Source of the DNA: a virus
DNA length: 38,907 nt
IMG/VR virus record: IMGVR_UViG_3300043429_000433
Coordinates: 1-38,907 of that record
Strand: one strand, 5' to 3'
Shown here: positions 4,953-22,155 of the stretch, piece by piece
Position numbering within the stretch: position 1 is the stretch's first letter
Layout of the letters: each line of letters begins with the position of its first letter
Made by a program: the position numbers and the translations under genes
Notes under the pieces: generated by a model
Database searches by the model: none
Told to the model about the DNA's origin: nothing
What the model saw: the letters and a program-made list of their open reading frames with translations, nothing else

Positions 4953-5591
4953 ATGACCCAGCTTCTCGGTGTTGTACCGCCACGACTGCCCGCTGCTCCG
5001 CAAGCGTACGAGACGCGATTTCACAACCAGCACAGCGATGTGCTGCGGCTGTATTTCAACCAGCTTAATGGCAATGTCAACACGTTGGTTGGTCCTCGTG
5101 GAGGGCAGTACCTGAATTTCCCGTACGCTGCCATTCAGCGCACTACGGACAAGACTTTCACGGTCAACACCGCTACGCAAATCACGTTTGACGAGACCGA
5201 CTTTATCAACGGCTGCGTCAACGATGGCACGGACGGCATCTTGGTCAACCAGTCCGGCATTTACAACTATCAGTTCAGTGTCCAGTTGAAAAACACCGAC
5301 AGCCAGATTCACTCTGCGTGGATTTGGCTGCGCATCAACAACATCGACGTGACTGGGACAGGCAGTAAGTTTGACGTCATCTCCAGCCACGGGGGTATTC
5401 CGGGGTTTGTCATTGCAGCGGCCAACTTTTATGTGCAACTGACCGCCGGGGACACCGTTGAAATGTGGGCAGCGGCCAGCGATACAGCCGTGACTTTTGA
5501 CGCTACCGCAGCCCAGACCAGCCCCTTCCCGATGCCGTCCATCCCCTCTGTGGTGGCCACACTTTCATTTGTCTCTTCGGTTCTCCCATGA
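4953..5591 (+). CDS. Virion decoration / fibre-like protein with C1q/TNF-like jelly-roll appearance
   Basis: This encodes 212 residues, beginning 2 nt after the previous stop with GGAG 6 nt before the ATG. The first 60 residues are Pro-rich and contain Arg-Phe-His-Asn-Gln-His-x-Asp-Val-Leu-Arg-Leu-Tyr-Phe-Asn. The rest alternates hydrophobic strands ending in the motif Gly-Ile-Tyr-Asn-Tyr-x-Phe-Ser-Val-Gln-Leu, then Trp-Ile-Trp-Leu-Arg-Ile-Asn. The order 'G-x-Y-x-F-x-V-x-L ... W-L-x-x-N' is reminiscent of trimeric C1q/TNF-like jelly-roll heads on phage fibres and decorations. The fold is inferred from pattern only. It probably works with the large structural protein encoded just upstream. Confidence 0.55.
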   Translation: MTQLLGVVPPRLPAAPQAYETRFHNQHSDVLRLYFNQLNGNVNTLVGPRGGQYLNFPYAAIQRTTDKTFTVNTATQITFDETDFINGCVNDGTDGILVNQSGIYNYQFSVQLKNTDSQIHSAWIWLRINNIDVTGTGSKFDVISSHGGIPGFVIAAANFYVQLTAGDTVEMWAAASDTAVTFDATAAQTSPFPMPSIPSVVATLSFVSSVLP

Positions 5592-5625
5592 TAGACTCAA
5601 TCAACCCCCATTCCGTGAGGCCCCA

Positions 5626-6702
5626 ATGAGCCTAGAACTTGCTGCACAACACCTTGCCAGCCGTGGGCGCAAAGGCGACACCATGTTGGTTCACATGGCC
5701 CCAGAGGAAGTCTCGGGCCTCCAAGCGCTCGCCATGGCTGCAGGCGGCACCCTGACGCTCAACCCAGATACGGGTTTACCCGAAGCCAACTTCCTTAAGC
5801 GAATGCTGCCCATGCTCATCGGTGCTGGCATTACTGCAGCCACAGGCGGCGCTGCCGCCCCTTGGATGATTGGGCTAGGGATGGGTGGGCTGGAAACCGT
5901 CCGTACAGGTAGCTTGGAAAAAGGTCTGATGGCAGGGCTTGGCGCATACGGCGGCGCTGGGTTGACTGGTGGCTTGATGGGCGCGGGTAATGCGGCTGCC
6001 AGTCAGGCGGCGTCTGCCGCAAACCCCGGTTTTGTGGGGCCTATGCCCGGCGCGGCGAGCAACACAGGCGCATTGAGTGCAGGCATTAAGGGTCTTGGCA
6101 CTGAAGCTGGTCGCTCTGCTGCACTGTCCTCCATGGGCGGCGGAGCACAAGCAGCTAAATTCGGTCTCGCTGCACTGGCCCCCACGTTGGAGCCCGATGC
6201 GGCAAAGCCTTACGCTGGCAGCGGCCCCAACTACGAATACACATACGACCCCAACACCAGCAGCTATACGCAAGTACCTGTGGGTACGCGAGACAAGCTG
6301 GGCAGAACCCCGAGCTACTACGCAGCAGGTGGCCCAATCGAAGCGTTGTCCGACCGCAATGAAATGGAAACCATGATGGCCAACGGCGGTCAGATGTTTG
6401 CTGCAGGGGGTATCTCCCACCTCGGTGACTACTCCGATGGCGGTCGGCTTTTGAAAGGACCCGGCGATGGTGTATCTGACTCCATTCCTGCAACGATTGC
6501 GAACAAGCGCCCAGCGCGTCTTGCTGATGGTGAGTTCGTTGTCCCTGCTCGTATCGTTTCTGAACTAGGTAATGGCTCCACGGAAGCTGGCGCACGCAAG
6601 CTGTACGCCATGATGGACCGCGTTCAAAAAGCTCGTGGCAAGACCACGGGTAAAGACCGTGTAGCCGTTAACTCCAAAGCCGATCGGCTGCTGCCAGCAT
6701 GA
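5626..6702 (+). CDS. Internal virion / ejection-type protein, Gly/Ala-rich
   Basis: The start at 5626 is chosen because GTGAGG lies just upstream; the frame is open further upstream but would overlap the previous gene by almost 100 nt. It encodes 358 residues. Residues about 67-130 are a long Gly/Ala/Met hydrophobic stretch that could insert in a membrane. The C-terminal third has Gly-Gly tags (Tyr-Ala-Ala-Gly-Gly and Phe-Ala-Ala-Gly-Gly). It also has a conserved-looking tail with Gly-Asp-Gly-x-Ser-Asp-Ser-Ile-Pro-Ala, Gly-Glu-Phe-Val-Val-Pro-Ala and Ala-Arg-Lys-Leu-Tyr, a pattern I associate with podovirus proteins encoded beside the ejection proteins. Its stop overlaps the next start (ATGA). 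Role in DNA ejection is inferred from position and composition. Confidence 0.55.
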   Translation: MSLELAAQHLASRGRKGDTMLVHMAPEEVSGLQALAMAAGGTLTLNPDTGLPEANFLKRMLPMLIGAGITAATGGAAAPWMIGLGMGGLETVRTGSLEKGLMAGLGAYGGAGLTGGLMGAGNAAASQAASAANPGFVGPMPGAASNTGALSAGIKGLGTEAGRSAALSSMGGGAQAAKFGLAALAPTLEPDAAKPYAGSGPNYEYTYDPNTSSYTQVPVGTRDKLGRTPSYYAAGGPIEALSDRNEMETMMANGGQMFAAGGISHLGDYSDGGRLLKGPGDGVSDSIPATIANKRPARLADGEFVVPARIVSELGNGSTEAGARKLYAMMDRVQKARGKTTGKDRVAVNSKADRLLPA

Positions 6703-8213
6703 GAATTGAACGCGTTGATGTAGGACATGTCCACCAAGTCTGGCCTCTGGTGGAGTCCCATATTGCATCGGCGCTTGAGCACTCCAAAGGCGATTACACG
6801 CTGGAGTCGGTTAAGGTTTTGCTGGTCACAGGCCAGCTACTGCTGGTCGTAGCGGTGAATGATGAAGGTGTACAAGGAGCGGCAACAGTGATGTTTACCA
6901 GCCGTCCGCATGACCGCGTTGCATTCATCACGACAATCGGCGGCAAGCTGATCAGCAACGAAGAGACGTTTGAGCAGATCAAAGCGCTGCTGCGTTCTTT
7001 GGGCGCAACTTGTATTGAAGGTGCTGCAAGAGAAGCCATCGCCCGGCTCTGGTCACGTTACGGCTTTGAAGAAAAGTACAAAATTGTTAGTGAAGATATG
7101 AGCTATTCCCGCAGACAGCTTGAAGCATTTGGCGAGCCGTTGGGCGACTCCGTTACCCGCAACGAAGGCGGTCGCATCATTTATGGTGGTGGTGGTGGGG
7201 GTGGGGGTGGCACAAGCACCCAAGTTGTTGACCTGCCCGATTGGGCCAAACCCGCTGCGGAGAGATCACTTGCAAAAACGGAAGCGTTGACTACGGATCG
7301 CCCGTTCAAAAGTTTTGCTGGGCAGTACGATCAAGCGGGTAACCAGATTGGGTTTGACGCCAGCAAAGTGGTTGCTGGCATGGACCCCATGCAACAACAG
7401 GCGTATCAACGCGCTGGCGGTATGCAGACTTCTCCACAGCTGGGGACGGCTATGGGGCTTGCAGGTACTGCTGCCAGTCGCGGACTGGGTATGCAGTATG
7501 ACCCCTATGCCACGGGTCAGTTTGGCGCACAAGCCGGTCAGTACATGGACCCGTACATGCAGAATGTGGTGAACATTCAGCAGCGGGAAGCTCAGCGACA
7601 GGCCGATATTGCAGGCACACAGCGCGGTGCTCAGGCTGTTAAGTCCGGCGCGTTTGGCGGTAGCCGCCAAGCCATCATGGACGCAGAAGCTGCGCGTAAC
7701 TTGGCAACCCAAAAAGGCGACATCCAAGCTCGGGGTTTGCAAGATGCGTTTGCTCGTGGTCAGCAGCAATTCAACACTGAGCAGCAGCTCCGTGAGCAGT
7801 CACGTCAGTATGGCGCGGGTCTGGGCCTTCAGGGTTTGCAGGCGGCCTTGCAGGGCGCAGGTCAGTTGGGTGCTCTGGGGCAGCAACAGTTCGGTCAGGA
7901 ACGCGACATCCTCAACCTGCAAAACCAGTTTGGTGCTCAGCAGCAAGCGCAGCAACAGGCGATTCTTAATGCCCGCGCGCAGGACTTTGCCACAGCACAG
8001 CGGTATCCGTATCAGCAGTTGGAGTTCATGTCGAACATCCTGCGCGGCACGCCTATGGGCACAACCCAAACAATGTACCAAGCGCCTCCCAGCGTAGGCT
8101 CTCAGTTAATCGGTGCAGGCACTGCGCTATACGGCGCAAGCAAACTGGCCAAGGGCGGTGCGGTGAAGAAAAAATCGGCAGGTCTGGCTGAGCTGGCCCT
8201 GTCAAAAATCTGA
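6699..8213 (+). CDS. GNAT-like domain fused through a polyglycine hinge to an internal virion protein
   Basis: This encodes 504 residues. Residues 1 to about 140 look like a GNAT acetyltransferase fold: an N-terminal strand, helices, Leu-Leu-Leu-Val-Val-Ala-Val, Gly-Ala-Ala-Thr-Val-Met-Phe, then a helix and a final Tyr-Gly-Phe-Glu-Glu. T7 gp13 is described as GNAT-like and lies at the equivalent place. Residues 163-171 are nine consecutive glycines (nt 7185-7211). After them comes a Gln/Ala/Gly-rich helical protein (about 175-490) with many Gln-Gln pairs, and a Leu-Ala-Lys-Gly-Gly near the C-terminus. The classical acetyl-CoA loop is not obvious, so activity is doubtful. The fusion is unusual because the domain and the poly-Gly protein are, as I recall, usually separate genes. 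Confidence 0.6.
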   Translation: MRIERVDVGHVHQVWPLVESHIASALEHSKGDYTLESVKVLLVTGQLLLVVAVNDEGVQGAATVMFTSRPHDRVAFITTIGGKLISNEETFEQIKALLRSLGATCIEGAAREAIARLWSRYGFEEKYKIVSEDMSYSRRQLEAFGEPLGDSVTRNEGGRIIYGGGGGGGGGTSTQVVDLPDWAKPAAERSLAKTEALTTDRPFKSFAGQYDQAGNQIGFDASKVVAGMDPMQQQAYQRAGGMQTSPQLGTAMGLAGTAASRGLGMQYDPYATGQFGAQAGQYMDPYMQNVVNIQQREAQRQADIAGTQRGAQAVKSGAFGGSRQAIMDAEAARNLATQKGDIQARGLQDAFARGQQQFNTEQQLREQSRQYGAGLGLQGLQAALQGAGQLGALGQQQFGQERDILNLQNQFGAQQQAQQQAILNARAQDFATAQRYPYQQLEFMSNILRGTPMGTTQTMYQAPPSVGSQLIGAGTALYGASKLAKGGAVKKKSAGLAELALSKI

Positions 8214-8221
8214 GGTAGGCC

Positions 8222-9886
8222 ATGATCGACGTCAACAAAATCACCTCCACGCTGGCCAAGTTGCCTGACCAGCAGCTGCAGCAGTATGCGCAGATGCACA
8301 AGAACGACCCCTACATCATGGCGCTGGCCATGTCGGAGTCCAACCGCCGCAAAGAAATGCGTGCTGCCGGTCAGGGTGAGATGCAAGAGCAGCCCAAGGT
8401 GGTTGATCAAGAAATCGCCCGCATGGGTGACATGCAGGGCGCAAACCCAGAGCAGCTTGCAAGACTGGCGCAGATGCTTGATGCGCGGAAAGAAGCCGAG
8501 TACAAAGAGTTCACAGGACAGAAGTCCCAGCAGATGCCTGAAGATATGGGTATTGGCCAGCTCCCCGCAGGCGATATGAACTTCGCAGGTGGCGGCATCG
8601 TTGCGTTTGCTGACGGTGGTGATGTTGAGCGTTACTCTGGCGAGTTTGGTTCTTTGACGGGGGAGTTCAGTGGCTTTGGCGGAATGAGCCCTGAACAAGC
8701 AGCGGCGGCTGAACTTCGCGCAGCCGAAGAAGCAAGACGCAAGCAGCTGGCTAAATTGGAACAACAGACGGCTTTTTTAAAAGCTGCTAAAGCGCCGCAA
8801 GCCCAAGCGGCACAGGCGCAGTTGGACGCACTGAAAGCCAGTATGCAGCCCAAGCCGTCCCCAACCGACCCCAACTTCCGACGTCAAGAAGACCCGCGTA
8901 TGAAGCCGGGGGTAGCCGCAACCGCGCAGCCGCTGATTACTTCCGGTACCGCGCCCACTGCCGATACTGGCCGGAAAGGCCCTGCGGCAGAGCCCGTTGC
9001 AAAAAAAGAAACCGGGTTTGACGCGTTGCTTAAAGCTCTTGACGGCGCTCCTGCACCTGCCTCTACAGATAGTGTTTTTTCGCAAAAGATTACGGACCTG
9101 ACAAATGCCCGCGTGCAAGCGCGTAGGGAAGAGGCGGAAGGATTGGACGCCATCCACAAAAAGTTTTCGGATATTTACAAGGGCCGCGAAGAACGCCTGT
9201 CCAAACGCGAAGGCGAGCTGGGCAAAATGAAGGATCAGAACATGGGGCTGGCGCTGTTGCAGGCAGGCGCAGCCATCATGTCCACTCCGGGCAGTCTGGG
9301 CACGGCTATCGGTAGGGGTGTTGACGTCGGCTCTAAACAGTACGCAGCAGGCATGGATAAACTCAACGCCGCCAAGGAAAAGCTGTCGGATGCGCGTGAT
9401 CGTCTGGACGACCTTAACGCCCAGCGCGGTGAAATGTCCGCCCGAGAAAAGCTCAAAGCTATGTCCGCGATCAAAACCGAAGAGGCTGCAGGGCTGGAGT
9501 TGTTGCTCAAAGCCGACATGGATATGCACAAGATCAGCCGAGAGGAAGCGCTCAAGCGTCTGGACCTCCGTACACGTATCGGTATTGCACAACTGCAAGA
9601 GCAGGGCCAGAATGTTCGGGCGGCTGCAGGAAACCGCAACAACCAGCTAGAGGTGTTGAGAGCGGTGGAGGCGGACCCCCGCTTGATGGCGGCTTATCGG
9701 GCAATGCAGGGTAAGAACGAAGACGTTATGGCCCAGTACAACGACTTCCTGAAAGCAAATCCGACTCTGGCGATGGACCCACAGAAAGCCATGACGCAGT
9801 TTTTGATGAGTAAGTCTGTTTTCTCTCAACTGGGCGCGGCCCCTGTAACTGAAAAAGCTACTGGACCTATTCGCAAACAGCCTTAA
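8222..9886 (+). CDS. Internal virion / ejection-type protein, Ala/Gln-rich helical
   Basis: This encodes 554 residues, with GAGG 6 nt before the ATG. The N-terminal 110 residues are helical and Met/Gln-rich. Around residues 119-136 is Asn-Phe-Ala-Gly-Gly-Gly-Ile-Val-Ala-Phe-Ala-Asp-Gly-Gly, matching the Gly-Gly tags of the two preceding proteins. Residues 155-210 are an Ala/Gln/Lys helix, followed by a Pro-rich linker, then a second charged helical block (about 290-500) with one more hydrophobic Ala/Gly stretch near 340-370 (Leu-Ala-Leu-Leu-Gln-Ala-Gly-Ala-Ala). No enzyme motif is visible. Its position between the GNAT fusion and the giant protein suggests a T7 gp14/gp15-like ejection role; this is inference. 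Confidence 0.55.
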   Translation: MIDVNKITSTLAKLPDQQLQQYAQMHKNDPYIMALAMSESNRRKEMRAAGQGEMQEQPKVVDQEIARMGDMQGANPEQLARLAQMLDARKEAEYKEFTGQKSQQMPEDMGIGQLPAGDMNFAGGGIVAFADGGDVERYSGEFGSLTGEFSGFGGMSPEQAAAAELRAAEEARRKQLAKLEQQTAFLKAAKAPQAQAAQAQLDALKASMQPKPSPTDPNFRRQEDPRMKPGVAATAQPLITSGTAPTADTGRKGPAAEPVAKKETGFDALLKALDGAPAPASTDSVFSQKITDLTNARVQARREEAEGLDAIHKKFSDIYKGREERLSKREGELGKMKDQNMGLALLQAGAAIMSTPGSLGTAIGRGVDVGSKQYAAGMDKLNAAKEKLSDARDRLDDLNAQRGEMSAREKLKAMSAIKTEEAAGLELLLKADMDMHKISREEALKRLDLRTRIGIAQLQEQGQNVRAAAGNRNNQLEVLRAVEADPRLMAAYRAMQGKNEDVMAQYNDFLKANPTLAMDPQKAMTQFLMSKSVFSQLGAAPVTEKATGPIRKQP

Positions 9887-9897
9887 AATGCGGGGAC

Positions 9898-9916
9898 GCG
9901 CCCACCTTACGGGCGC
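9898..9916 (+). promoter_or_regulatory. Intergenic hairpin upstream of the giant virion gene
   Basis: A perfect 6-bp inverted repeat GCGCCC / GGGCGC with the 7-nt loop ACCTTAC lies in the 51-nt gap between the 554-residue gene and the 2976-residue gene. It is not followed by a T run on either strand, so it is not a standard terminator. It could protect or cleave the mRNA, or lower expression of the giant gene, whose ribosome site is weak (only GGAA 7-10 nt before the ATG). Confidence 0.4.
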
Positions 9917-9937
9917 ACACAATTCGGAACACTTGCC

Positions 9938-12900
9938 ATGGCCAAATACCTGACCCTCCCTGACGGTTCTTCGTTTGAAATGAAGGAGGGGCAGACCCCC
10001 GCCGATGCAATGCAAGCGGCGATTAGGCTGTATCCCGACGCTTTTGGTTTCGGGGCAGAAAAGCCCCGGCAAGACACTTCCGGTCTTAAAGCCGCCGCCT
10101 CTGCAGGGCTTGAGCGCCTCAAGGGACAGACGGCCTTGACGGCTGCTAAGTTGGGGTTCAAAGACATCGCCGAGGCCGAGGCGTATCAAAAGCAGCAAGA
10201 AGCCAAAGCAGCCGAGCGTTTCACGCCCACTGAAAAAGGCTGGACCGAAGCCCCCTTCCTAAAGTTCCGCGAAACCCTTGGTGGCTCGTTGCCCTACATG
10301 GTGGCTCCTGTTGCCGCAGGCGCTGCGGCGTTAGCCGCTCCAGTATCGGCCCCGGTCGCTGCAGGTTTGGGTTTGCTGGGCGCTGGCGCTGTGTCTACGG
10401 GCCAGTTTACTGGCTCCAACATTGCCCGTCAGATGGACGAAGGCAAGTCGCTGCAAGAAGCCAGCCTCGGCAAAGCTGTTGGCGCTGCGGTTCCGCAAGC
10501 CCTGCTTGATACCGCTGCCATGGCGTTGCTGCCCGGTGTGGGCAAGCTGTTTGGCTCCGTGGGTTCCAAACTCACAAATGAGCAGGCAAAAGCCATTGCC
10601 TCCCAAACACTGGGCAAAACCGTTGCGGATTATGCAGCAAAAACTGGCACCGCAATGACGCGTGAAGGCTTGACGGAAGCTGTGCAACAGTCGCTTGAGC
10701 GACTGCAAGCGGGCTTGAGCATCACCGACCCCGAGGCCCGCAAAGAATACGTTGATAGCTTTATTGGTGGTGCTGTGCTTGGCGGGGCGGCAGCGCCTTT
10801 TGGTCGTGCGTTTGAGCGTAGCGGTGCCAAGAAACAAGCCGAAGCTGCGCAGCAACAAGAACAGGCCGATGCAGCTGCCGCAGCCGAAGCTGCCAAGAAT
10901 ACGCCCGAAGCCCTGCGCCAGCTTGACACTGACTTCCGCGCAGCGGATCAGCAACTCAAAGCCCTGAACGCACAGCTCAACGCTGCCAAGCCCAAGAAGG
11001 GTGCGACAGAAGAACAAAAGCAGGCGTACGAAGCGCTCAAAGCCAAGCGCGATGAATTGCTGATTGCCTACAAACCCCTGCGCCAAGAGTTTATGCAACG
11101 CAAGGGTGCGCTCGACAAACTGTACGAAGACCAGCAAGCGCAGCTTGAGGGGCAGTCAGTACCCGGCCAGACCGCAGCAAAGCTGCCACTGCCTTCTGAC
11201 ATCCCCGGCGCACAACCCTTCCAGTTGTCAGACACCTCGCGTCTGATGAATGAGTACGACAACTTGCGCAACCAAGTGGCCGCAGTTGAGCAGCAACTGG
11301 CCGCAGGCCCAGACCTCGATACCCAGACGGCTTTGACCCAGCAGCGCAGCCAGATCATGGCTCGCATGGCTGAAATGGCCCCGATCATTGATGAGCGCGG
11401 TGGTGTCGTAGACACCGAAAAAGAGTTTGCCAAGAAGCTGGCCGCTGCCGAGAAAGAGCGCTTGCGTCTGCTTGAGATTGGTGACTTTGAAGCGGCTGCA
11501 AAGCAAGCCGAAGTTGTGCGTGATCTGCAAGCCCGCGCTCCCTTCCTGCAAGAGCTAAACGATTTCCGTACAAAAGCTGGCCAGAACCGTGAACTGGGGC
11601 TGGAAGAGCCCGCACAACCCGAAGGCGGTGGCGTACAGTATGTGTCGCCTACAGGCAAACCCATCACGCCTTTCCCAGCAACGGCTGCAGAAGCTGCACC
11701 GCTGCCCTCTGACAAACCTCAAGAACTGGCGGCAGTACAGACTGCGCAGACCGGCGTGGATGCTGCACAGCAAGCGCTGGATGCAGCGGTCAAAACCAAA
11801 GACACAACCCAAATCTTTGGCGCGGTGGATGCGCTCAACCAAGCGCAAAACACAGTGGCGCGGGCGCAAGAGGATATGGGTCGCCCACTACTTAAGCCTG
11901 CAGTGCTGGACATTTTCAGTCCGGCCAACATTCTGAACACGGCAATCCAAAACGGCAACTCGAAGGTAATCAACGACATTGCGTCCCACGCCGATACTAT
12001 GGCGCTGCGTGCAGCCCTCGACCAAAACCTCAGTGAGCGCGAGAAGCTGATCAATGTGTTGGAGAACCGCGCTGGTTTGGGTGGTTCCGAGCGTGCAGCC
12101 AGAGTTACGTTTGCCCCAGAAGAAGCTGGCGGTAAGACCCGTACTGTCGAGAAAGGCGAAGGCGAACCTCTGCAAAGCGTCAAGCGCGAACGCGCTGACT
12201 TGTTCTCCAAACTGTACGACGCTCGGCAGCAGGCACTGTTTAAGAACGGCACATACCCTGACCGGGAACTGCAAGCCCTTTACGACAAAGGCGGTCCAGC
12301 CGCCGTTGAGTATGAGCGCGTCATGCAGGACGTCGAAGAACTGTCCAAAAAGGTTACGACCAAGCAAGGCAACGCCAAACAATCCCTGTACGAGCAGCTC
12401 GTAGATTTGGCCGCGCAGCACGCCGCATTGGTTGCGCAGCTGGAAGCCGGTGTGGCCACGCCCAACATGCGGGAAAAGACCGCTGCGTTGCAGGCCAAGA
12501 TGGGTAAAGGCGAAGCCCCGGCTCAGCGCCAGATGGACGCTGCTGAGAAGTACCAGCTTCAACGCAAGATTGACGCGCTGGTCAACAAGTACAAGTTGGT
12601 GGAAGGCCAAGTAGCCCCCATCCGTGACCAGATTACCAAGTTGTACAACAGTCTGTACAAAACCGTGCCACTGGAAAAAGCCAGCACTATCGCTGAGCGT
12701 AGGGCACGGGAGTCGGACGAAGCTGCCAAGGGACCAAAAGCCAAGTCCCGCACTACCGCCACTGCTGCAAGAATTAACGCAGGGGATGTGCGCAAAGAAG
12801 CCGAAACCTCTCAGAAGATGCGCGATCTGGCGCGTGAACTGGGTATGGAAGAGGCGGAGTACAAGAAGTTAAGCGACAACTTGACCAAGCGTTATGCCGC

Positions 12901-15900
12901 TCTGAAAGAGAAGTACGGCAAGAACGACCCCGCTGTTAATCAGTTCCAGATCAGTATGGTTGACCAGCTGAACGACAAAGCCATGGAGCTGGGCAAGGCC
13001 ACGCCTGAGTACAAGGCCACGCTGAAAGAGCAGATCGAGTACTTCCAGAAAACGCTCGCCAACGTAAATGCTGTTGTTGGCGCACAGAAAGCCCCAACCA
13101 AACGCACTGGCCCCGTTACGCGCAAACAGTCGGCAGCGCCAAGCCGTTTGGTAACGTCATCTCCTGAAAGCCGTGCGCAGACTGATCTCGAAGACCGGGC
13201 AGTGCGCCTCAAGCGCGGTTCGCTCAAGGACTTCCAAGAAGCGATTGATGCGGAAAAAGAAGGCCGTGACTACCTGCGCGGTGTTGAGACCGAAAGCGTT
13301 GCATTGAATCGTGACGTGGTTTCTCTGCTTGAAAAAGGTGATGTGCAAGGTGCTCTGCGCCTTATCAGCAAAGACCCATCGGTGGATAAATTCAGCCAAG
13401 CTGTGGCTGCGCGTCTTGCGCCGTTCCTCGATGTCACCAAAGTCAAGATTGAAAACGACCTGCGTGACCCTGATGGCAAGGAAGTTTTGGGCGCTGCAAC
13501 AAGCAAACTGATTGAACTGAACCGCAACGGCGGTCTGTCGGTTGAGACGCTGCTGCACGAAGCCACACACGCGGCAGCTGAACGCGTTGTGCAGCTATCT
13601 GAGACAAACCCCAAGGCGCTCACAAAAGAACAAACGCTGGCTATCAACGAGCTGAAGGCACTGCACGCTCGCGTTAAAAACGACAAAGGGATCACCAGCA
13701 AAAACGCCAAGGGCAGCCTGTCTGAGTTTGTGGCCGAAGTGATGTCCAACCGCAACCTGCAAAAGCAACTGGCGCAGCGCCGTTGGAAAATGCTGGACGC
13801 ATGGACTGGAGTCAAGTCCATCATCATGCGCATGCTGGGCCTGCAGAAAGTGGAAACCATGTTCGGCGCGTCTGTTGTGGCGGTCGATCAGTTGTTTATC
13901 CCGGCAAGCGCGAAGGTGGGCAAAGGCCGCAAGGAAACACGCGTTACTCGGAACCTGTCAGCCAAAGACATTGCTGCGTTGCACGACGGTACTAACTCGA
14001 TGAAGCAGTTTGCCGATCAGTTCGGCCCACTCATCAAGCAGAAAGACCGTACGCCCGAAGACGTTGAGCGCATCGCCATGCAGGCATTAAAAGACATGGG
14101 TGAAGACCTCGACAACCTTTTGTCTGTTCCCACTGCAGATACGCTGGACTACAAAGCAATGGCGACTATGTCGGACGGAAAGCTGTACGACGAGAACAAC
14201 CCACTGCACTACGTTGAGGCAACCCCAGCTACCTTTGCTGCGTTGGAAGCAATGAACAATCCGCAGTTGCGCCGACGCGAAGCCGCCGCTATTGCACAGC
14301 AACGCAAAGACGACTTTACAAGTCTGGCTCAATTTTTTGTAGACAACTACGACAACTACACCTTTGCAGAAACGGCGTTGGTTATGAAAGCCGCATCCAA
14401 GTATGCGGTGCTGTCCGGTAAAGACGGTAAGCTGCGTCTGGCCGAACTGGCGTCCAATAACCGACACAACATTGCTGTGGTCGGAAAAGAAGACGCAGAC
14501 GCTATTATTGAGCAGCTGCGTGCAGGCAAGAACCTCAAACAAGCCTTCTTGGACGGCTTGCAGAAAAACGCTGATGACAACGCCAAGAACAACGAGCGCA
14601 AAAACGGCTGGAAAAAGTTTGAGCAGGCGGGCGGCGATACACCTTTGCTTGCCACGCTGTATACCAATGCCGAAGTTATTGACGCCGAAGCGGCAGCAGC
14701 AAAGAACGGACTTGAGTTCGGCCCTGACACGGGGCAGAACAACATGGACGACTTGATTGAAGCGCTTGTTGAAAACGGTTACTTGCCGTTCAGGGGAGGC
14801 AATATCGGTGAAAAAATTGAAAAAGCAGCGATTGAGTTGAACGCAGGCTGCGCAGGCACGCCGTGGTGTACAGGCGCAAGCGTCGGTACTGCCCGCAATC
14901 AAATTGAGGGCGGCGATTTCTACGTCTACTACAACAAGGGGCGTCCTGAAGTTGCAGTACGTATGAATGGGCAAGACCGTATTGGCGAAGTTCGCGGCAA
15001 CAACCCAAACCAAGCGCTTGACCCTGAGCAACAAAAAATTGCTGCAAATTTCTTGCGTGCAAATAACTTTCAAAGCGCGGATGAGTATCTCTCGGAGTTT
15101 GAGCGCCGTGAAGCGCTTGTCAAATTGGCCAAAGGCGAAACAACACTTGGTGTCAAAGACTTGTTGGGGGAAGACTCTGTTGTCAGTAGCGACGGTAAAG
15201 TGGATGCTTACGAAGTAGACAAACTGTTGAGGTTCCGCACGATTGATGGTTACGGTAACCGACCAAAACCTGTCGATAGCGTTGTAAAGTTTTTTGGCCA
15301 ACAGTACCTTGAAGCAGCATCGCGTGCGTACGACAACAACGAGTTTGTTTTTTCGGAGGTTCGTGTCGACGAAACTACGGCTGAAAAAGGTATCGAAGTA
15401 GAGTTTGCGGGCAAGAAGTACAACGCCACTACAGAAAACTTGAAAGCAGCTAAGGAACTTGTTTTGTCGGTGTTTAGCTACGGCAGCAAACCGGCTGAAG
15501 CTGTTACGTTTCCAAACCTTACAGACGTGCAAGAACTGAGCATGTTCAAAGGGGAGTTGGTACTGCCCTCACTAAAAACGGTCAAAGAGGTGACATTCTT
15601 TAGACGCGAATTTAGTGGCGCACCTGCAAAAATCGTACTGCCGCCCAACGCCACCGTAAAAGAAGTGCGCGGTTATGAAGACGCGTCTGGTGTGATTGAA
15701 GGCCCCACAACCGTTGAGTTGGTAATGCTTTCGCGTGGTCTGGGTAGTTTGACGTTGGATTTGCCTGACACCAAATATGTAGCTACTGTGGATGACACTC
15801 GCGGCATTACACGCGCTTATGCCGGTAGCGCAAGTGAAGCCATCGACGACGCGCTTGAAGCCAAGGGGATTGGTTTTGCAGACCTCCGACGCGTTAGACG

Positions 15901-18868
15901 CGGCGAAGGAACACCTGCCCAAACTGCGGTGTATAAAGACATTACAAAACCGGCGCTTGAAAAGTTTTACAAAGCGCTAGAAAAAGAGTTTGGTTCTGAA
16001 ACAATTGACCAACTACTCAACAACACCGATATAGCCGACGCCAACCGTGACGGTGATTATAAAACCGCATTTAAGGAGGCTATACCTGAAGTGTTGGAGG
16101 CCAACAAGTACTCACGCGAAGCCTTCGACAAAATGGCAAAAGTCATTAAGGCTGCCACAGGCGCGGACGTTGTGTACCCAGAAGGGCAGTTGATTGCGCC
16201 CAAGCGTGTTGGCAACCCGCCTTACGATCAGCCTTTTACTGAAGCTCCTGAAGAGCGCCGTTTTGCTCCCAAAGATGTGGGCGTGCAGGAGGACAAGAAA
16301 GGCGTGTTCTCGTTTGCCCGCAAGCAAGTCAACTCGTCGTCTGTAGTTGCTCGTGAGCCGGGCGTTGTGGACACCTTGCTCGGCAACATCATGGGTTTGG
16401 CGGGGCGTGTGCAGTTCATTGACCAGTACGCAGCTTTGGAAGCCGCTACTAAAAAGGGCATGAATGCCGGGGTTATCAGCAGTCTGGAGGCTACCAACGC
16501 CAACTACTTACTGCGGTTTGGCCAGCAGCGCAGCCAGTTTGCGGGGCAGTTCCTGACCAACGGTCCGGTCAAAGCCGAGATCACACGCAAGAACGGCGGC
16601 ACTGAAACGGTGTACCGCAGCACCAAAGGCGTGTCGATGGTGGACGTTGCACAGGCACTTAACAAGGCCAAGTTGTCTAACGACGTGGAGCAGGAGAACA
16701 TGTTCACGTTGTACGTGGCAGGCAAGCGTGCTCAGCAAGTCGGTTGGGACAAGCTCAACTTCTCCAGCCCTGCGCAAGCCAAGGCCGAGTACGACGCCGT
16801 TATTGCCCGTCTGAACAACAACCCAGAAGCCAAGAAAGCGTTTGAAGAAGCGGCCAAGCTGTATCAACAGTACAACGCAGGTTTGCTGGACTTCCTTGCA
16901 CAAACAGGCGCTTTGTCGGACAAGAAAGTGGCGGAACTGAAATCAATCAACTACGTGCCGTTCTACCGGGTGAACAACAACGGTGAAGTGCAGTTGATGG
17001 TGGACAAAGAGCGCCCTGTGCGTATCGCCAACATCAAGGACCAGCCGCAGCTTAAAGAGCTGATTGGCGGCAACACCGCTATTTTGCCGATCTTTACCAG
17101 CGCAGCGCAGAACACGTTCATGCTCACAGGCATGGGCTTGCGCAACCAAGCCGTGAAGGAGACCTCCTTTATGCTGCAAAAGCTCGGCATCGCCAGCCGC
17201 GTAGCGCCGGGTAACGGGCCGACAGGAGCCAACGTGGTGCGCTTCTTCAAGAAGGGCGAGCCATACTACGCACTGATTGATACCGACGCTTACGGCATCC
17301 CGGCTGAGTTGATCGTGCGCGGTATGGAGGGCATCAAGACAACGCTGCCTGCTATCGTTAAGCTGCTGGGGATTCCGGCCAACATTTTGCGCTCGTTCGT
17401 TGTGCGCAACCCCACCTACGCTGTACGCCAGATCATCCGTGACCCGCTGAACGCTTGGCTGACAACCGGCACTGACGCCGTGCCTGTGCTCTCGTCCATG
17501 AAAGAGCTGGCCAAAATGGTGGCTGGCCGCAGTGATGCCGAGCGAAAACTCATGGAGACAGGCGCAATCAGCAGCAACGTCTACAGCGGCGATGAGCAGG
17601 ATATGTCCAAGTTCCTCAAGGACATGTCGGCAGGCAAGTCTGGTTGGGACAAAGCTGTCGGTAAGCTCGATGCTTTTGCGTTGCAAGGCGATGCCGCTAC
17701 CCGTGCTGTGATCTACAAGGACTCGCTGGCCAAGGGTATGTCTGAGCAAGAGGCGCTGCTGCGCACGCTGGAGTCGATGAACTTCAGCCGCCGTGGCGTG
17801 TCGCCAAGCATGCAAGCTCTGTCCACGCTGATCCCGTTCTTCAACGCACAGGTGCAGGGTCTGGATGTCATCTACCGCGCATTCAAAGGCGACATGCCTT
17901 ACAGCCAGCAGCTCGACATTCGCGGAAAGATGGCGCGTCGTGGCGCTCTCTTGGCCGCAGGCACAATTGCCTACGCCATGTTGATGGAAGACGATGAGGC
18001 GTACAAACGCGCCAAGCCTGAAGAGCGCCTTGCCAACTGGTTTGTGTATGTGCCCGGTATCGACGAGCCTGTGCGTGTACCAATCCCGTTTGAAATGGGC
18101 TTCTTGTTCAAGGCATTGCCAGAGGCTGTTTACAACATGGCCATGCAAGACGACAAAGCAGACGCTGCCATCAAGGGTCTGGGCCGACTTGCGTTGCAAA
18201 CCGTACCGCTGAGCCTGCCCCAAGCCGTTAAACCGCTTACAGAAGTGATACTGGGCAAGTCCTTCTACAGCGGTGACATTGAGTCTGTTCGTGAGAAAGA
18301 CGTGCTGCCCACCCAGCGCTACCGCGATAACTCCACCGAGCTGGCCAAAACCATTGGCGCTGTGACAGGCAATATCGGACTCAACCCGATCACGATCGAC
18401 TACTTGATCCGTGGTTACACAGGCGGTCTGGGTATTGCGCTTGTGCAGCTGGCCAACCCGATACTGGCTCCCGGCGACAAGCCAGAGGTTGCCGAGCCTA
18501 CTACCAAGATCAGCAAGGCACCTTTCATTGGCGGTTTGTTCCAGCCTGTGCAGGGCCGGGGTACGCTGGATGAGGCCTACGACCGCATGACTGAGATCAG
18601 GCAGGTCAAGGGCACATTCAATGACCTCGTGGAGAAAGGCAAACGTGCTGAAGCGATGGCGTTTGCTCAGGAATACTCCGACAAGCTGGCGGCTGCGTCG
18701 ATTTCGGGCAGCGTGCAAAAACAGTTGGGCGAGTTGGCAAAGCTGGAGCGCCAGATCAAGGCTGCGCCCAACCTGACGACGGAGCAGAAGGACGCTCAAC
18801 TGGAGCGTCTGGACAAAGCCAAAACCGCAATCGCCCGGCAGTTCCTTGCAACAACAGCTCAGCGATAA
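9938..18868 (+). CDS. Giant polyvalent virion/ejection protein with HExxH peptidase motif, PcfJ-like and LPD38-like regions
   Basis: This encodes 2976 residues. Residues about 110-150 and 165-205 are hydrophobic Ala/Gly segments. Residues 285-1080 are mostly charged coiled coil. His1207-Glu1208-x-x-His1211 (Leu-Leu-His-Glu-Ala-Thr-His-Ala-Ala) is a zinc metallopeptidase motif, with Glu1263 or Glu1267 (Ser-Glu-Phe-Val-Ala-Glu) as candidate third ligand. Residues about 1450-1700 hold Pro-Trp-Cys-Thr-Gly (1642-1646) and Gly-Asp-Phe-Tyr-Val-Tyr-Tyr, recalling PcfJ. About 1850-1950 there are Leu-Pro-x-Leu-type repeats like leucine-rich repeats. From about 2130 to 2890 the sequence resembles the 'large polyvalent protein-associated domain' LPD38. 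Phages inject such proteins with DNA to act on the host; T7 gp16 is the positional counterpart. Domain names other than HExxH are from memory of family patterns. Confidence 0.75.
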   Translation: MAKYLTLPDGSSFEMKEGQTPADAMQAAIRLYPDAFGFGAEKPRQDTSGLKAAASAGLERLKGQTALTAAKLGFKDIAEAEAYQKQQEAKAAERFTPTEKGWTEAPFLKFRETLGGSLPYMVAPVAAGAAALAAPVSAPVAAGLGLLGAGAVSTGQFTGSNIARQMDEGKSLQEASLGKAVGAAVPQALLDTAAMALLPGVGKLFGSVGSKLTNEQAKAIASQTLGKTVADYAAKTGTAMTREGLTEAVQQSLERLQAGLSITDPEARKEYVDSFIGGAVLGGAAAPFGRAFERSGAKKQAEAAQQQEQADAAAAAEAAKNTPEALRQLDTDFRAADQQLKALNAQLNAAKPKKGATEEQKQAYEALKAKRDELLIAYKPLRQEFMQRKGALDKLYEDQQAQLEGQSVPGQTAAKLPLPSDIPGAQPFQLSDTSRLMNEYDNLRNQVAAVEQQLAAGPDLDTQTALTQQRSQIMARMAEMAPIIDERGGVVDTEKEFAKKLAAAEKERLRLLEIGDFEAAAKQAEVVRDLQARAPFLQELNDFRTKAGQNRELGLEEPAQPEGGGVQYVSPTGKPITPFPATAAEAAPLPSDKPQELAAVQTAQTGVDAAQQALDAAVKTKDTTQIFGAVDALNQAQNTVARAQEDMGRPLLKPAVLDIFSPANILNTAIQNGNSKVINDIASHADTMALRAALDQNLSEREKLINVLENRAGLGGSERAARVTFAPEEAGGKTRTVEKGEGEPLQSVKRERADLFSKLYDARQQALFKNGTYPDRELQALYDKGGPAAVEYERVMQDVEELSKKVTTKQGNAKQSLYEQLVDLAAQHAALVAQLEAGVATPNMREKTAALQAKMGKGEAPAQRQMDAAEKYQLQRKIDALVNKYKLVEGQVAPIRDQITKLYNSLYKTVPLEKASTIAERRARESDEAAKGPKAKSRTTATAARINAGDVRKEAETSQKMRDLARELGMEEAEYKKLSDNLTKRYAALKEKYGKNDPAVNQFQISMVDQLNDKAMELGKATPEYKATLKEQIEYFQKTLANVNAVVGAQKAPTKRTGPVTRKQSAAPSRLVTSSPESRAQTDLEDRAVRLKRGSLKDFQEAIDAEKEGRDYLRGVETESVALNRDVVSLLEKGDVQGALRLISKDPSVDKFSQAVAARLAPFLDVTKVKIENDLRDPDGKEVLGAATSKLIELNRNGGLSVETLLHEATHAAAERVVQLSETNPKALTKEQTLAINELKALHARVKNDKGITSKNAKGSLSEFVAEVMSNRNLQKQLAQRRWKMLDAWTGVKSIIMRMLGLQKVETMFGASVVAVDQLFIPASAKVGKGRKETRVTRNLSAKDIAALHDGTNSMKQFADQFGPLIKQKDRTPEDVERIAMQALKDMGEDLDNLLSVPTADTLDYKAMATMSDGKLYDENNPLHYVEATPATFAALEAMNNPQLRRREAAAIAQQRKDDFTSLAQFFVDNYDNYTFAETALVMKAASKYAVLSGKDGKLRLAELASNNRHNIAVVGKEDADAIIEQLRAGKNLKQAFLDGLQKNADDNAKNNERKNGWKKFEQAGGDTPLLATLYTNAEVIDAEAAAAKNGLEFGPDTGQNNMDDLIEALVENGYLPFRGGNIGEKIEKAAIELNAGCAGTPWCTGASVGTARNQIEGGDFYVYYNKGRPEVAVRMNGQDRIGEVRGNNPNQALDPEQQKIAANFLRANNFQSADEYLSEFERREALVKLAKGETTLGVKDLLGEDSVVSSDGKVDAYEVDKLLRFRTIDGYGNRPKPVDSVVKFFGQQYLEAASRAYDNNEFVFSEVRVDETTAEKGIEVEFAGKKYNATTENLKAAKELVLSVFSYGSKPAEAVTFPNLTDVQELSMFKGELVLPSLKTVKEVTFFRREFSGAPAKIVLPPNATVKEVRGYEDASGVIEGPTTVELVMLSRGLGSLTLDLPDTKYVATVDDTRGITRAYAGSASEAIDDALEAKGIGFADLRRVRRGEGTPAQTAVYKDITKPALEKFYKALEKEFGSETIDQLLNNTDIADANRDGDYKTAFKEAIPEVLEANKYSREAFDKMAKVIKAATGADVVYPEGQLIAPKRVGNPPYDQPFTEAPEERRFAPKDVGVQEDKKGVFSFARKQVNSSSVVAREPGVVDTLLGNIMGLAGRVQFIDQYAALEAATKKGMNAGVISSLEATNANYLLRFGQQRSQFAGQFLTNGPVKAEITRKNGGTETVYRSTKGVSMVDVAQALNKAKLSNDVEQENMFTLYVAGKRAQQVGWDKLNFSSPAQAKAEYDAVIARLNNNPEAKKAFEEAAKLYQQYNAGLLDFLAQTGALSDKKVAELKSINYVPFYRVNNNGEVQLMVDKERPVRIANIKDQPQLKELIGGNTAILPIFTSAAQNTFMLTGMGLRNQAVKETSFMLQKLGIASRVAPGNGPTGANVVRFFKKGEPYYALIDTDAYGIPAELIVRGMEGIKTTLPAIVKLLGIPANILRSFVVRNPTYAVRQIIRDPLNAWLTTGTDAVPVLSSMKELAKMVAGRSDAERKLMETGAISSNVYSGDEQDMSKFLKDMSAGKSGWDKAVGKLDAFALQGDAATRAVIYKDSLAKGMSEQEALLRTLESMNFSRRGVSPSMQALSTLIPFFNAQVQGLDVIYRAFKGDMPYSQQLDIRGKMARRGALLAAGTIAYAMLMEDDEAYKRAKPEERLANWFVYVPGIDEPVRVPIPFEMGFLFKALPEAVYNMAMQDDKADAAIKGLGRLALQTVPLSLPQAVKPLTEVILGKSFYSGDIESVREKDVLPTQRYRDNSTELAKTIGAVTGNIGLNPITIDYLIRGYTGGLGIALVQLANPILAPGDKPEVAEPTTKISKAPFIGGLFQPVQGRGTLDEAYDRMTEIRQVKGTFNDLVEKGKRAEAMAFAQEYSDKLAAASISGSVQKQLGELAKLERQIKAAPNLTTEQKDAQLERLDKAKTAIARQFLATTAQR

Positions 18869-18905
18869 AACCACACCCCGCTCAGTCCCTTGTGGACGGC
18901 GGGGT
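18867..18905 (-). terminator. Intrinsic terminator of the leftward early transcript
   Basis: On the minus strand a stem ACCCCGC / GCGGGGT (7 bp, positions 18899-18905 and 18875-18881) encloses an inner stem GTCC / GGAC with a 5-nt loop. It is followed within 4 nt by TTTT (18870-18867). This is a good rho-independent terminator shape for transcription coming out of the primase-helicase gene. It lies directly after the stop codon of the convergent giant gene, so it may also end or stabilise the rightward transcript, but no T run follows on that strand. Confidence 0.65.
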
Positions 18906-19006: not shown

Positions 19007-21985
19007 TTAACCCGTAACCATGGGAATACTCTGGAGTACCGTGTCATCGAGTGTGCTCATATTCGCGCTCAGGCGCAGTGTCGCAACGCGCATCGGTGGG
19101 CCGTCCGTCTTGGCGGTCATATCCTTCTTGGCCACCTGCTGCACGATAAACGACTGCGCGATCTCTTTCTTGAACGTCGCATAGCTGAAGCTCATGTTGG
19201 AGCAGTACGCACGCAGCAAGCGCTCTTCGATGTAGTAGTCCACGTAGCCCGGATTGACGCCGTGCTCGACCCGACCCATGATCTCTTGGCGCGTTGTCGT
19301 TCTGCCCACCGTTGTGCCGTCCCCAAACATGGCAGCAGGGCTGGCCTTCTCACCGTACTTGACGATGACGAACTTGCCTTGGAACTCCTGCGTGTACGAG
19401 TTGAGTACGTCCTCGGCTGTGCGCTTGCCGCCCTTGATGCACTGGCGCTGGTGGTCGATCTGGCGGCGGTACGACTCGATGATCTCCTGCAAGGGGATGT
19501 TGACGATACCTGTATGCTTGTCGCTCAGGAGCAGACCTGCTGCCACGATAGCGCCCACACCTGCCATCCAGTACCGCTCGTCGTTAGGGGCCTTGTACTC
19601 GGTGTACATACGGCGCACGCACTCGGGCACCAGTTCACGCAACATGCCGATGTTGTCCACCAGATACTGCGCCAAGACTTCCCCCGCTACGCCGAAGTTT
19701 GACGGCAGCGACTTGATGATCTCGATCTCTTCTTGCGACCACTCCAGCTTCACGTCCATGTTGAACTCGATCATGCGGCGCAGTTCACCCTCAGAGGAGT
19801 GCTTGCGCTCACCTGTCATGTAGTCAACGGCAGGGCGGTTGGAGGACATCAGCGCCAGCGTGGCCCACGTGGACAGGTTCAGGCGTTCTTTGTTGGTGCC
19901 CGACTCCATGCGTTCTTTGCCGCGCCCTTCGCTCATACTGAACAGGAAGGCAGGGAACCACTCAAAGTCCTTGCGGTTGTTTGTGGTGATCTCGTCCGTG
20001 ATGAGCGGCAGGCTGCGCAGATGCCCAAGGCGTTGCTGCATGGCAACAGGTGATGTGCCCGAGCCTGTGCGGTAGTGGATCGGATGGCCCCAGATGGACG
20101 CTGCTGCATCCAGCGACAGCGACTTGCCCGTACCGGACTCGGTGGAGGCCACGTGCACCGTCATGCCCAGCAGCCCTGTGAAGCGCATCAAGGGGGCAGC
20201 AGCGCCAGCCAGCACGATGGCCAACTGATCCCACATCTTGCGCCGCACCATCATGTTGATGACATTTCTCCAAGCGTCCAGTGAGCCAGTGGGTTTGGTG
20301 CTGGCCACGATGTTTTGCAGCTCAGACATGGGCACCATCACGGGCTTGCGGTTGGCGCTGTACACGCGGCTTGCAAACACAAAGCTGTCATCTTCCTGCC
20401 AGCCGTAGCTGGGAGGCATCTTGATGGGGTTCTTCTCAATGCTGATCTTCTCCACGCTGGCGCGGATGTAGGCAAAGAAGTTCTGGTCGTTGCCCGAACC
20501 GAATGAGGCCATGACGTTCTGGTTGGCCAAATGTTTGATCGTCTCGTCCTTGCTGGCCATGCACTTCTGTGGCACCAGCACTTCGTGCATCTGGTTGTTC
20601 TTCACCACGCAGAAGTGGACCTCGTGGCTGCCGTTGTTGTTCAGGATGTCCACAGGGAAAATTGTGTTGGCGCACAGCAGCACGCGCTTCTTGATGGGAT
20701 TGCCGTCAGCGTCTTCCTCGTCCCGCTCCAAGAACACACCGCCACGTTCACCGTAGGCGTACCCTTTTGGTGGCTCAGGCTGCGCAATCTCCACAGTATC
20801 GGCATCGGCAGCTGCACTGTTCTTCACCTCGATCGTGGTCTCGTTAGTGACCACTGACATTTCCCTGCCCCAAATGAGTGGGTTGGTGATCTTGCCCCAG
20901 TGGGCGCAGCCACGGCACACGCCGGGGTTAATGTCGTCCATGGCAGCGCATGAGTACGGGCCTTTGATCTCGGCCAGCTTCTGGTGCATGCGCTCGTGGG
21001 GGTAGGGGTGCAGGTCGCTCAGCCACGTGGATGCTTTCTCCCCATCTACGCAGACCTTGGCCCAACTGAGCATCCCACGCCAGATCGGCTCCATGCCATC
21101 GTCGGATGCGTTCTCAACGTAGTTCTGGAGCTGGGCGCAGCCTGAACCGTTTTTGGTTTTGATCAGAATTTTTTTGAACAACGTCACGCTGTTTTGCGTG
21201 ATGGCCGTCAACGTGGAGGGTTTACTGACACCCGTTGGCCGCTGCCCCGGCAGCGCCAGCGTGGAGGGGGTGGGCTTCTTTACAAAGTCTGGACCGAACC
21301 CTTGTGCTGTCAGGAGGGCCTCGATGTCGGCCACGGCAAACTTGTTGCCCTCGGCCATGCTGCGCACCCGTGTGGCTTCGCGTACAGCCTTGCCGTTCTT
21401 GATGCCGGTGTTGGTGGTGTCAGGTACGCGCAAGACTCGGGAAGCATCGCCTGTGACCGCAGTGTCGATGGCCAGCCCGTGCTTGATGCACATCTCTTTG
21501 AAGCGCTTGGCCAGCGGATACCAGTCCTCTTTGAACAGCATCTCGTCGAGCGGCCAGTAGGCATGGATGCCGCCGCCAGAATGAACAAGCCACGGGTCGC
21601 CAAGTGCCGACAGCCCTGTGTCCTCACAGAACTTTTGCAGCGCCTGCGCCGCAGCTTTGGCGCTCGGATATGCCTTGGGCTTGATGACCATCTCGCCCGT
21701 TTCTTTGTCGGGCTGGGGTATGTCCTTGGGATGGTTGCAGTCAAGGTCCACGGCCAGCACTTGGCTGGCGTGCATGTTGTCCTTGGTGCGGTCCTTGTCC
21801 GTGCCGAACGTGCCCAGTGCAAAGTAAGTGTCGTATCCCGCTTTCGCCCACTGCTCGACGGTGGGCATGATCTCCTCAAGTGTTTGTCCGTAGACGTGTT
21901 GTTTTTTCTTTGTAAGTTCTACCGCGCAGTAATAGCCATTACCCGGAGACGGCAAAACCGCCGCCATCAAATCGAGCGGAGTCAT
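19007..21985 (-). CDS. Primase-helicase: AEP-type primase domain plus DUF927-like superfamily III-type ATPase
   Basis: Start at 21985 is chosen because GAAGGA lies 5 nt upstream; an in-frame upstream codon would add an Arg-rich stretch overlapping the next gene. The protein is 992 residues. The primase half has Asp80-Leu-Asp82, Ser136-Gly-Gly-Gly-Ile-His141 and Asp174 with Gly-Asp-Ala-Ser-Arg-Val-Leu-Arg-Val-Pro (179-188), as in archaeo-eukaryotic primases. A Cys/His cluster near 340-365 may bind zinc. The second half has Walker A Glu-Ser-Gly-Thr-Gly-Lys621-Ser and Walker B Leu-Pro-Leu-Ile-Thr-Asp664-Glu665, with Ser-Ser-Asn-Arg near 730 as sensor. It should prime and unwind DNA at the phage fork for the family A polymerase. 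It is the last gene of the leftward arm. Confidence 0.85.
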   Translation of the reverse strand: MTPLDLMAAVLPSPGNGYYCAVELTKKKQHVYGQTLEEIMPTVEQWAKAGYDTYFALGTFGTDKDRTKDNMHASQVLAVDLDCNHPKDIPQPDKETGEMVIKPKAYPSAKAAAQALQKFCEDTGLSALGDPWLVHSGGGIHAYWPLDEMLFKEDWYPLAKRFKEMCIKHGLAIDTAVTGDASRVLRVPDTTNTGIKNGKAVREATRVRSMAEGNKFAVADIEALLTAQGFGPDFVKKPTPSTLALPGQRPTGVSKPSTLTAITQNSVTLFKKILIKTKNGSGCAQLQNYVENASDDGMEPIWRGMLSWAKVCVDGEKASTWLSDLHPYPHERMHQKLAEIKGPYSCAAMDDINPGVCRGCAHWGKITNPLIWGREMSVVTNETTIEVKNSAAADADTVEIAQPEPPKGYAYGERGGVFLERDEEDADGNPIKKRVLLCANTIFPVDILNNNGSHEVHFCVVKNNQMHEVLVPQKCMASKDETIKHLANQNVMASFGSGNDQNFFAYIRASVEKISIEKNPIKMPPSYGWQEDDSFVFASRVYSANRKPVMVPMSELQNIVASTKPTGSLDAWRNVINMMVRRKMWDQLAIVLAGAAAPLMRFTGLLGMTVHVASTESGTGKSLSLDAAASIWGHPIHYRTGSGTSPVAMQQRLGHLRSLPLITDEITTNNRKDFEWFPAFLFSMSEGRGKERMESGTNKERLNLSTWATLALMSSNRPAVDYMTGERKHSSEGELRRMIEFNMDVKLEWSQEEIEIIKSLPSNFGVAGEVLAQYLVDNIGMLRELVPECVRRMYTEYKAPNDERYWMAGVGAIVAAGLLLSDKHTGIVNIPLQEIIESYRRQIDHQRQCIKGGKRTAEDVLNSYTQEFQGKFVIVKYGEKASPAAMFGDGTTVGRTTTRQEIMGRVEHGVNPGYVDYYIEERLLRAYCSNMSFSYATFKKEIAQSFIVQQVAKKDMTAKTDGPPMRVATLRLSANMSTLDDTVLQSIPMVTG

Positions 21986-22005
21986 GAGGGTCCTTCGGGA
22001 ATGGG

Positions 22006-22155
22006 TTACTTCAGGTCGTCTTCGGCGGCGTCCAGCAGCGCAGCGTAGCGCTTCCACAACTCCTGCACAAACTCAACGGGTACAGCGTAGTTCTGTATGT
22101 AGATATAGTTCATCAACTCTTCGTCGGTCAGGGCTTGAGGTTGTACTCGTGACAT
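22006..22155 (-). CDS. Small acidic hypothetical protein (49 aa)
   Basis: The ATG at 22155 has GGAG 6 nt upstream. The frame opens further upstream, but those residues are out of character and overlap the HTH gene fully. The product is 49 residues, acidic, helical, with Asn-Tyr-Ile-Tyr-Ile-Gln-Asn-Tyr and Glu-Leu-Trp-Lys-Arg-Tyr. It overlaps the 3' end of the HTH gene by 28 nt and precedes the primase-helicase by 20 nt. Function unknown. Confidence 0.55.
   Translation of the reverse strand: MSRVQPQALTDEELMNYIYIQNYAVPVEFVQELWKRYAALLDAAEDDLK

Follow-up and report, generated by a model that had tools for sequence, protein, structure and literature searches.

What does a zinc peptidase do inside a giant protein that a phage is predicted to eject with its DNA? 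To our knowledge, the role that peptidases play in injected phage proteins of this size has been open since they were first described. The question is raised here by IMG/VR virus record IMGVR_UViG_3300043429_000433, taken over its entire 38,907 bases (hereafter the window), in which an ATG-initiated frame of 2976 aa, without an internal stop, spans positions 9938-18868 (+). An earlier note on this DNA had pointed out this single 8.9-kb frame, which frame analysis confirmed, and had read its product as a polyvalent ejection protein that combines a zincin motif with PcfJ-like, LRR-like and LPD38-like parts and uses the peptidase as a main weapon against host defences.

Genomic context and layout of the giant protein

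The giant gene is preceded by g9 (6699-8213, +), a DNA ejection protein by its match to phrog_4287 (E 3.8e-11) and the first or second of an ejection trio, and by g10 (8222-9886, +), a 554-aa product without a family that is the predicted second ejection protein and lies next to the giant gene in almost every relative. The order g9, g10, giant gene is kept in relatives and matches the ejection-gene trio of podoviruses. The giant protein is predicted to be the largest of the three DNA-ejection proteins of this phage. The first ~145 residues of g9 (6699-7133, +) resemble a small acetyltransferase by eye, without confirmation from PHROGs; several relatives encode a similar frame of ~136 aa as a separate gene, and in phage JC1 an acetyltransferase gene (gp63) precedes a virion protein. 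Downstream, a gene for a DUF927 primase/helicase of 1016 aa (19007-22057, -) is convergent with the giant gene, an adjacency that is also kept in relatives. Elsewhere the window encodes a tail protein with a Gp10 C-terminal domain (137-874, +; PF21939, E 5.8e-24), an endolysin (2430-2975, +; phrog_7, E 5.8e-48) and a replication module with a DNA helicase (24571-26130, -) and a family A DNA polymerase (27579-29558, -). Two antisense frames of 481 and 643 aa (14087-15532, - and 16943-18874, -) overlap the giant gene, whose codon bias most likely accounts for them.

No DNA-level relatives of the window were found among named phages. Searches of IMG/VR with the giant protein and with alignments of its segments collected about 45 distinct relatives, and segment profiles run over all frames revealed how they are commonly built: the N-terminal half varies and is followed by a zincin, then optionally by a block of linkers, WCTG domain and LRR-like repeats, and last by an LPD38 carrier. 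In the alignment, the N-terminus MAKYL is common to the giant protein, L004, L009 and other relatives. Residues 1-43 (9938-10066, +) align as an LPDG...YPDAF motif, replaced in some relatives by a PDGR...EQ version. A Gly/Ala-rich hydrophobic region (residues 115-300; 10280-10837, +), conserved in the consensus of the relatives and marked by a weak hydropathy peak at 122-140, is possibly a membrane part. The variable middle, rich in Ala, Glu, Gln and Lys (residues 300-1084; 10835-13189, +), is probably helical; residues ~300-1085 gave no Pfam match, and residues 939-1104 weakly match a tape-measure PHROG. Beyond the zincin, the linker blocks mid1 and mid2 (residues 1340-1560; 13955-14617, +) co-occur with the WCTG domain and are also found in the phage contigs L086-L088.

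The C-terminal carrier (residues 2120-2976, ~860 residues; 16295-18865, +) matches phrog_9854 (E 3.4e-45) and includes the LPD38 domain (residues 2686-2852; 17993-18493, +; PF18857, E 2.6e-31), whose score of 109.6 bits against a Pfam curated cut-off of 27 bears out the LPD38-type end proposed previously. LPD38 was the sole domain called in the Pfam scan of the giant protein, and the PHROGs scan placed two unknown families C-terminally and matched the middle to the N4-type virion RNA polymerase (vRNAP) family. Methylase, helicase, ART and lysozyme domains were not found in the giant protein, and for 32 relatives the N-terminal half gave no credible Pfam match to a known cargo domain.

The HExxH zincin domain

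Alignment, structure model, Foldseek and PHROGs together place the zincin, which we call type A, at residues 1105-1325 (13250-13912, +). Its HExxH motif (residues 1207-1211; 13556-13570, +), already noticed as His1207-Glu-x-x-His1211, is invariant: H1207, E1208 and H1211 are unchanged in 41/41 distinct type A sequences, as are E1263 and E1267 (13724-13738, +), either of which is a candidate third zinc ligand. Overall, 31 of the 221 alignment columns are fully invariant. The AlphaFold model (mean pLDDT 80.5, core ~90, first 34 residues unreliable) consists of three strands, the HExxH helix and a subsequent helix (177-186) bearing both glutamates, the same topology as in the polyvalent-protein peptidase class (Iyer et al., 2017; PMC5512222).

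The zincin fold that had been expected around residue 1207 is backed by the topology of the model, and also by predicted viral structures, among which Foldseek matched internal core proteins, internal protein D, a Cellulophaga phage structural protein and polyvalent proteins with prob 1.00; the comparison with the PDB, on the other hand, gave nothing significant (no match with E below 0.2), a bacterial zincin-type protease standing at rank 3 with prob 0.20. A search of PDB sequences with the zincin profile returned a weak match to an internal virion protein (9sfn_G, E 0.28) with HExxH in register. Among named phages, tblastn of the zincin retrieved N4-like vRNAPs and gp16-position internal virion proteins, and HExxH was in register in all four matches inspected (Pollock 2238, MY01 2308, Axy23_041 413, GF1_43 673). 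Scanned alone, the zincin segment matched phrog_2206 (N4-type vRNAP) at residues 1197-1320 and profile positions 2097-2243 only (E 1.4e-9); the vRNAP-family match of the giant protein falls outside the polymerase part, within the zincin part. Judged by sequence, the domain is a member of the polyvalent-protein peptidase kind, with predicted catalysis.

One peptidase of two types upstream of the carrier

The relative L009 is 63.6% identical to the giant protein over the N-terminal 1112 residues and 82.5% over the carrier. It lacks the zincin-WCTG-LRR block and carries in its place a domain of 220 residues with the motif HELIGH (HExxxH), which we call type B. An HExxxH set was included among the polyvalent-protein peptidases by Iyer et al. 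(2017; PMC5512222), and the general-base Glu is kept in the HExxxH of type B. Across relatives with at least 500 residues before the carrier, this slot holds either type A or type B and never both, contig-end cases aside. The type B domain lies 0-56 residues from the carrier, mostly within 13.

We recounted the slot in loci fetched with the carrier only, which removes the bias from the type A zincin and WCTG searches (493 candidate loci in IMG/VR, 80 of them retained). Exactly one zincin lies directly upstream of the carrier in 64/64 informative relatives, 46 of type B and 18 of type A; two loci that have WCTG but no zincin (L209 and L235) are left out of this count, as in both a contig end cuts into the gene and the sequence starts only downstream of the zincin position. 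A carrier-only tree (82 rows) contains at least ten switches between the types, all forced by well supported branches, although the tree is a quick build in which long branches may be misplaced. Named isolates hold both types: the type B profile matches PTXU04 gp25, CF418P1, 252E42.2, NVP1232O_28 and ARM81mr_p69, and HExxH is present in Shewanella X14 and Planktothrix Pag-Yong1. Outside the near family the rule does not hold throughout: neither zincin motif is present in the LPD38 protein of Bacillus phage Page or in that of Pelagibacter HTVC010P (gp20).

This slot rule (always one zincin, two types, many exchanges and no loss) is new here. Since the slot peptidase is often exchanged yet never lost, it is probably a needed part of the protein. 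The rule makes it a testable claim that entry requires the peptidase.

The WCTG-LRR module

The Trp-Cys-Thr-Gly region described in the earlier note is real, with W1643-C1644-T1645 conserved among relatives. It belongs to a domain (residues 1625-1760; 14810-15217, +) of an uncatalogued family common to Patescibacteria and Bacilli, for which we found no Pfam, NCBIfam or PHROGs family and nothing relevant to the motif in the open-licence literature. Behind it lie LRR-like beta-rich repeats (residues 1800-2010; 15335-15967, +), placed by AlphaFold model and relatives. What stands of the LRR-like part in the giant protein itself is a beta-rich stretch in the model, without a Pfam LRR match; only its relatives (L086, L095, L132) show clearly regular repeats. 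The WCTG block is present in 35/42 type A and 0/39 type B proteins (Fisher p 5e-16, overstated as the rows are related). As far as these sequences go, WCTG-LRR is an optional module of the giant protein, seen only with type A.

A scan of bacterial genomes for the WCTG domain gave 203 encoding stretches, from which 78 loci were retained; their titles are mostly Patescibacteria and uncultured Bacilli, Tenericutes or Erysipelotrichaceae. Occurrence in Patescibacteria and RF39-like Bacilli is patchy: 11/145 genomes carry the domain in a sample of the phylum of the Parcubacteria genome L098 (itself counted), and of 149 genomes sampled from the L095 class just one does, L095 itself. In the bacterial proteins the domain mostly lies near residue 250-370, often with LRR-like repeats behind it. 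The uncultured Bacilli genome L095 encodes three tandem WCTG-LRR paralogues (5260-11447) and five copies genome-wide, and in L131 (1570-3870) eight DUF4116 repeats, not LRR-like repeats, follow the domain. In the phage contigs L086-L088 the WCTG domain is placed ahead of a long LRR array: L086 (1-7362; also L087 and L088) encodes a 2454-aa phage protein with WCTG and about twenty LRR-like repeats. Two HExxH-like motifs come after the repeats in L086; the protein has a HEIGVH motif and, as a second zincin, one of the type seen in the window, and LPD39 takes the place of LPD38.

What kind of fold the WCTG domain has may be approached through its AlphaFold model (pLDDT 87.6). An enzyme with a GNAT-like fold, as in acyl or aminoacyl transferases, is suggested by 29 of the 50 best Foldseek matches in the PDB being GNAT-fold proteins (A-PGS, MprF, ATE1, GCN5 and others; by our count), which is only a hint, and by the invariant Trp, Cys, Asp, Arg and Glu of the domain. 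However, no single match was significant (best E 0.28) and a profile search of PDB sequences with WCTG returned nothing, so that we hold this assignment to be rather doubtful. Homology to PcfJ, as the earlier note would have it, is less credible still: Cys, Gly, Pro and RG..N motifs do fall in register in hhalign, but with a probability of 0.2% and P 0.35, no WCTG member scanned with Pfam matched PF14284, and PF14284 was absent from the three WCTG-bearing genomes tested. We rejected it after hhalign and hmmsearch comparisons with six PcfJ sequences. The module is probably a host-directed effector or binding part, and it fits a counter-host effector better than the peptidase does. A more speculative idea, to which we give limited credence, is that WCTG constitutes a new enzyme or ligand-binding family, perhaps GNAT-like, which together with repeat arrays would form a recognition-effector module of reduced-genome bacteria acquired by injected phage proteins, and that the adjacent slot would supply LPD38 phages with an entry peptidase both essential and freely exchangeable.

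Proposed function of the giant protein

We favour, as reasonably likely, a giant protein that comes third among the ejection proteins of a short-tailed-type phage and is the largest of them, with one always-needed entry peptidase and an optional WCTG-LRR cargo. The original suggestion of a polyvalent-class ejection protein that has a zincin and ends in LPD38 agrees with the LPD38, PHROGs, viral-model and gene-order evidence and with the presence of JC1 gp69 in virions. The protein would be packaged in the head, in the position of T7 gp16, N4 gp50 and Burkholderia JC1 gp69, and would exit after the products of the two upstream genes. It would consist of the conserved LPD38 carrier fused to a membrane-directed and helical N-terminal half, with one type A zinc peptidase in between that performs a step always needed around entry; the most likely step would be a cut at the boundary of N-terminal half and carrier after ejection, or a cut of one conserved host protein. 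WCTG-LRR would travel as optional cargo. Self-processing, which we regard as quite conceivable, is in line with the processing that Iyer et al. (2017; PMC5512222) proposed for such peptidases. Ready self-cleavage before ejection is argued against, because the N4 vRNAP is packaged unprocessed, as noted by Iyer et al. (2017; PMC5512222), and no degradation was seen in full-length recombinant N4 gp50 (PMC12633501). A conserved host target is a somewhat more tentative option.

The peptidase could alternatively be a counter-defence or takeover weapon that cuts variable host targets, as the first reading of this DNA had it. Effector action on host proteins is among the options of Iyer et al. (2017; PMC5512222), and the zincin domain is spread over many phages. 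Yet in the informative relatives it is never lost or doubled while being swapped repeatedly, and PADLOC gave no match. Optional weapons are usually gained and lost. Because there is always one zincin, never both, and many switches, the peptidase looks like a built-in infection part, and an entry peptidase acting on itself or on a fixed host target fits better, since it is often exchanged and never lost; the weapon now appears rather unlikely to us. Finally, the fold might be structural, binding zinc and aiding the packing or ejection of the carrier without any cleavage. The intact recombinant gp50 is compatible with this, as is the report, cited in PMC5512222, that encapsidation depends on the region surrounding the peptidase of N4. 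Against it stands the general-base Glu, invariant in type A HExxH and in type B HExxxH alike. For zinc binding alone this residue is not needed, and we judge a zincin devoid of catalysis improbable.

Comparison with known systems

The giant protein resembles the polyvalent proteins described by Iyer et al. (2017; PMC5512222), which are likewise giant and multidomain, lie beside late virion genes and combine a zincin with LPD38; it differs in adding WCTG-LRR, described in none of Pfam, NCBIfam and PHROGs. N4 gp50 and its relatives (Schitoviridae) have a related HExxH domain, at H2228 in gp50, where the C1 domain seen by cryo-EM covers 2124-2375, and gp50 is also the largest of three ejection proteins, the giant one exiting last (PMC12633501). 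Unlike gp50, the giant protein is without an RNA polymerase domain, and it ends in LPD38, which is not known to be related to the N4 C2 domain. An N4-type RNA polymerase in its long middle part was considered and rejected, with no polymerase match in Pfam or PHROGs.

The internal virion proteins at the gp16 position of Autographiviridae (Axy23_041, GF1_43, PAO1_Ab05 core protein) share the ejection-gene position and a zincin with a HExxHAAT-type motif, but are 1059-1337 aa long and gave no LPD38 or WCTG match in the searches run. In Burkholderia phages, the LPD38 giant JC1 gp69 (Bcep22 DarB-like) is encoded after a 510-aa virion protein and is virion-borne: mass spectrometry of virions recovered 51 unique peptides from this 4515-aa protein (PMC9144972). 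Unlike the giant protein here, it has LT, methylase/helicase and LPD3 domains; no Burkholderia phages were among the tblastn organisms listed at 1e-5. Finally, proteins of Patescibacteria and RF39-like Bacilli share the WCTG domain, often with LRR-like or DUF4116 repeats behind it, but are stand-alone proteins of ~550-900 aa, sometimes in tandem, without zincin or LPD38. The WCTG domain ties injected phage proteins to an uncatalogued family in these bacteria.
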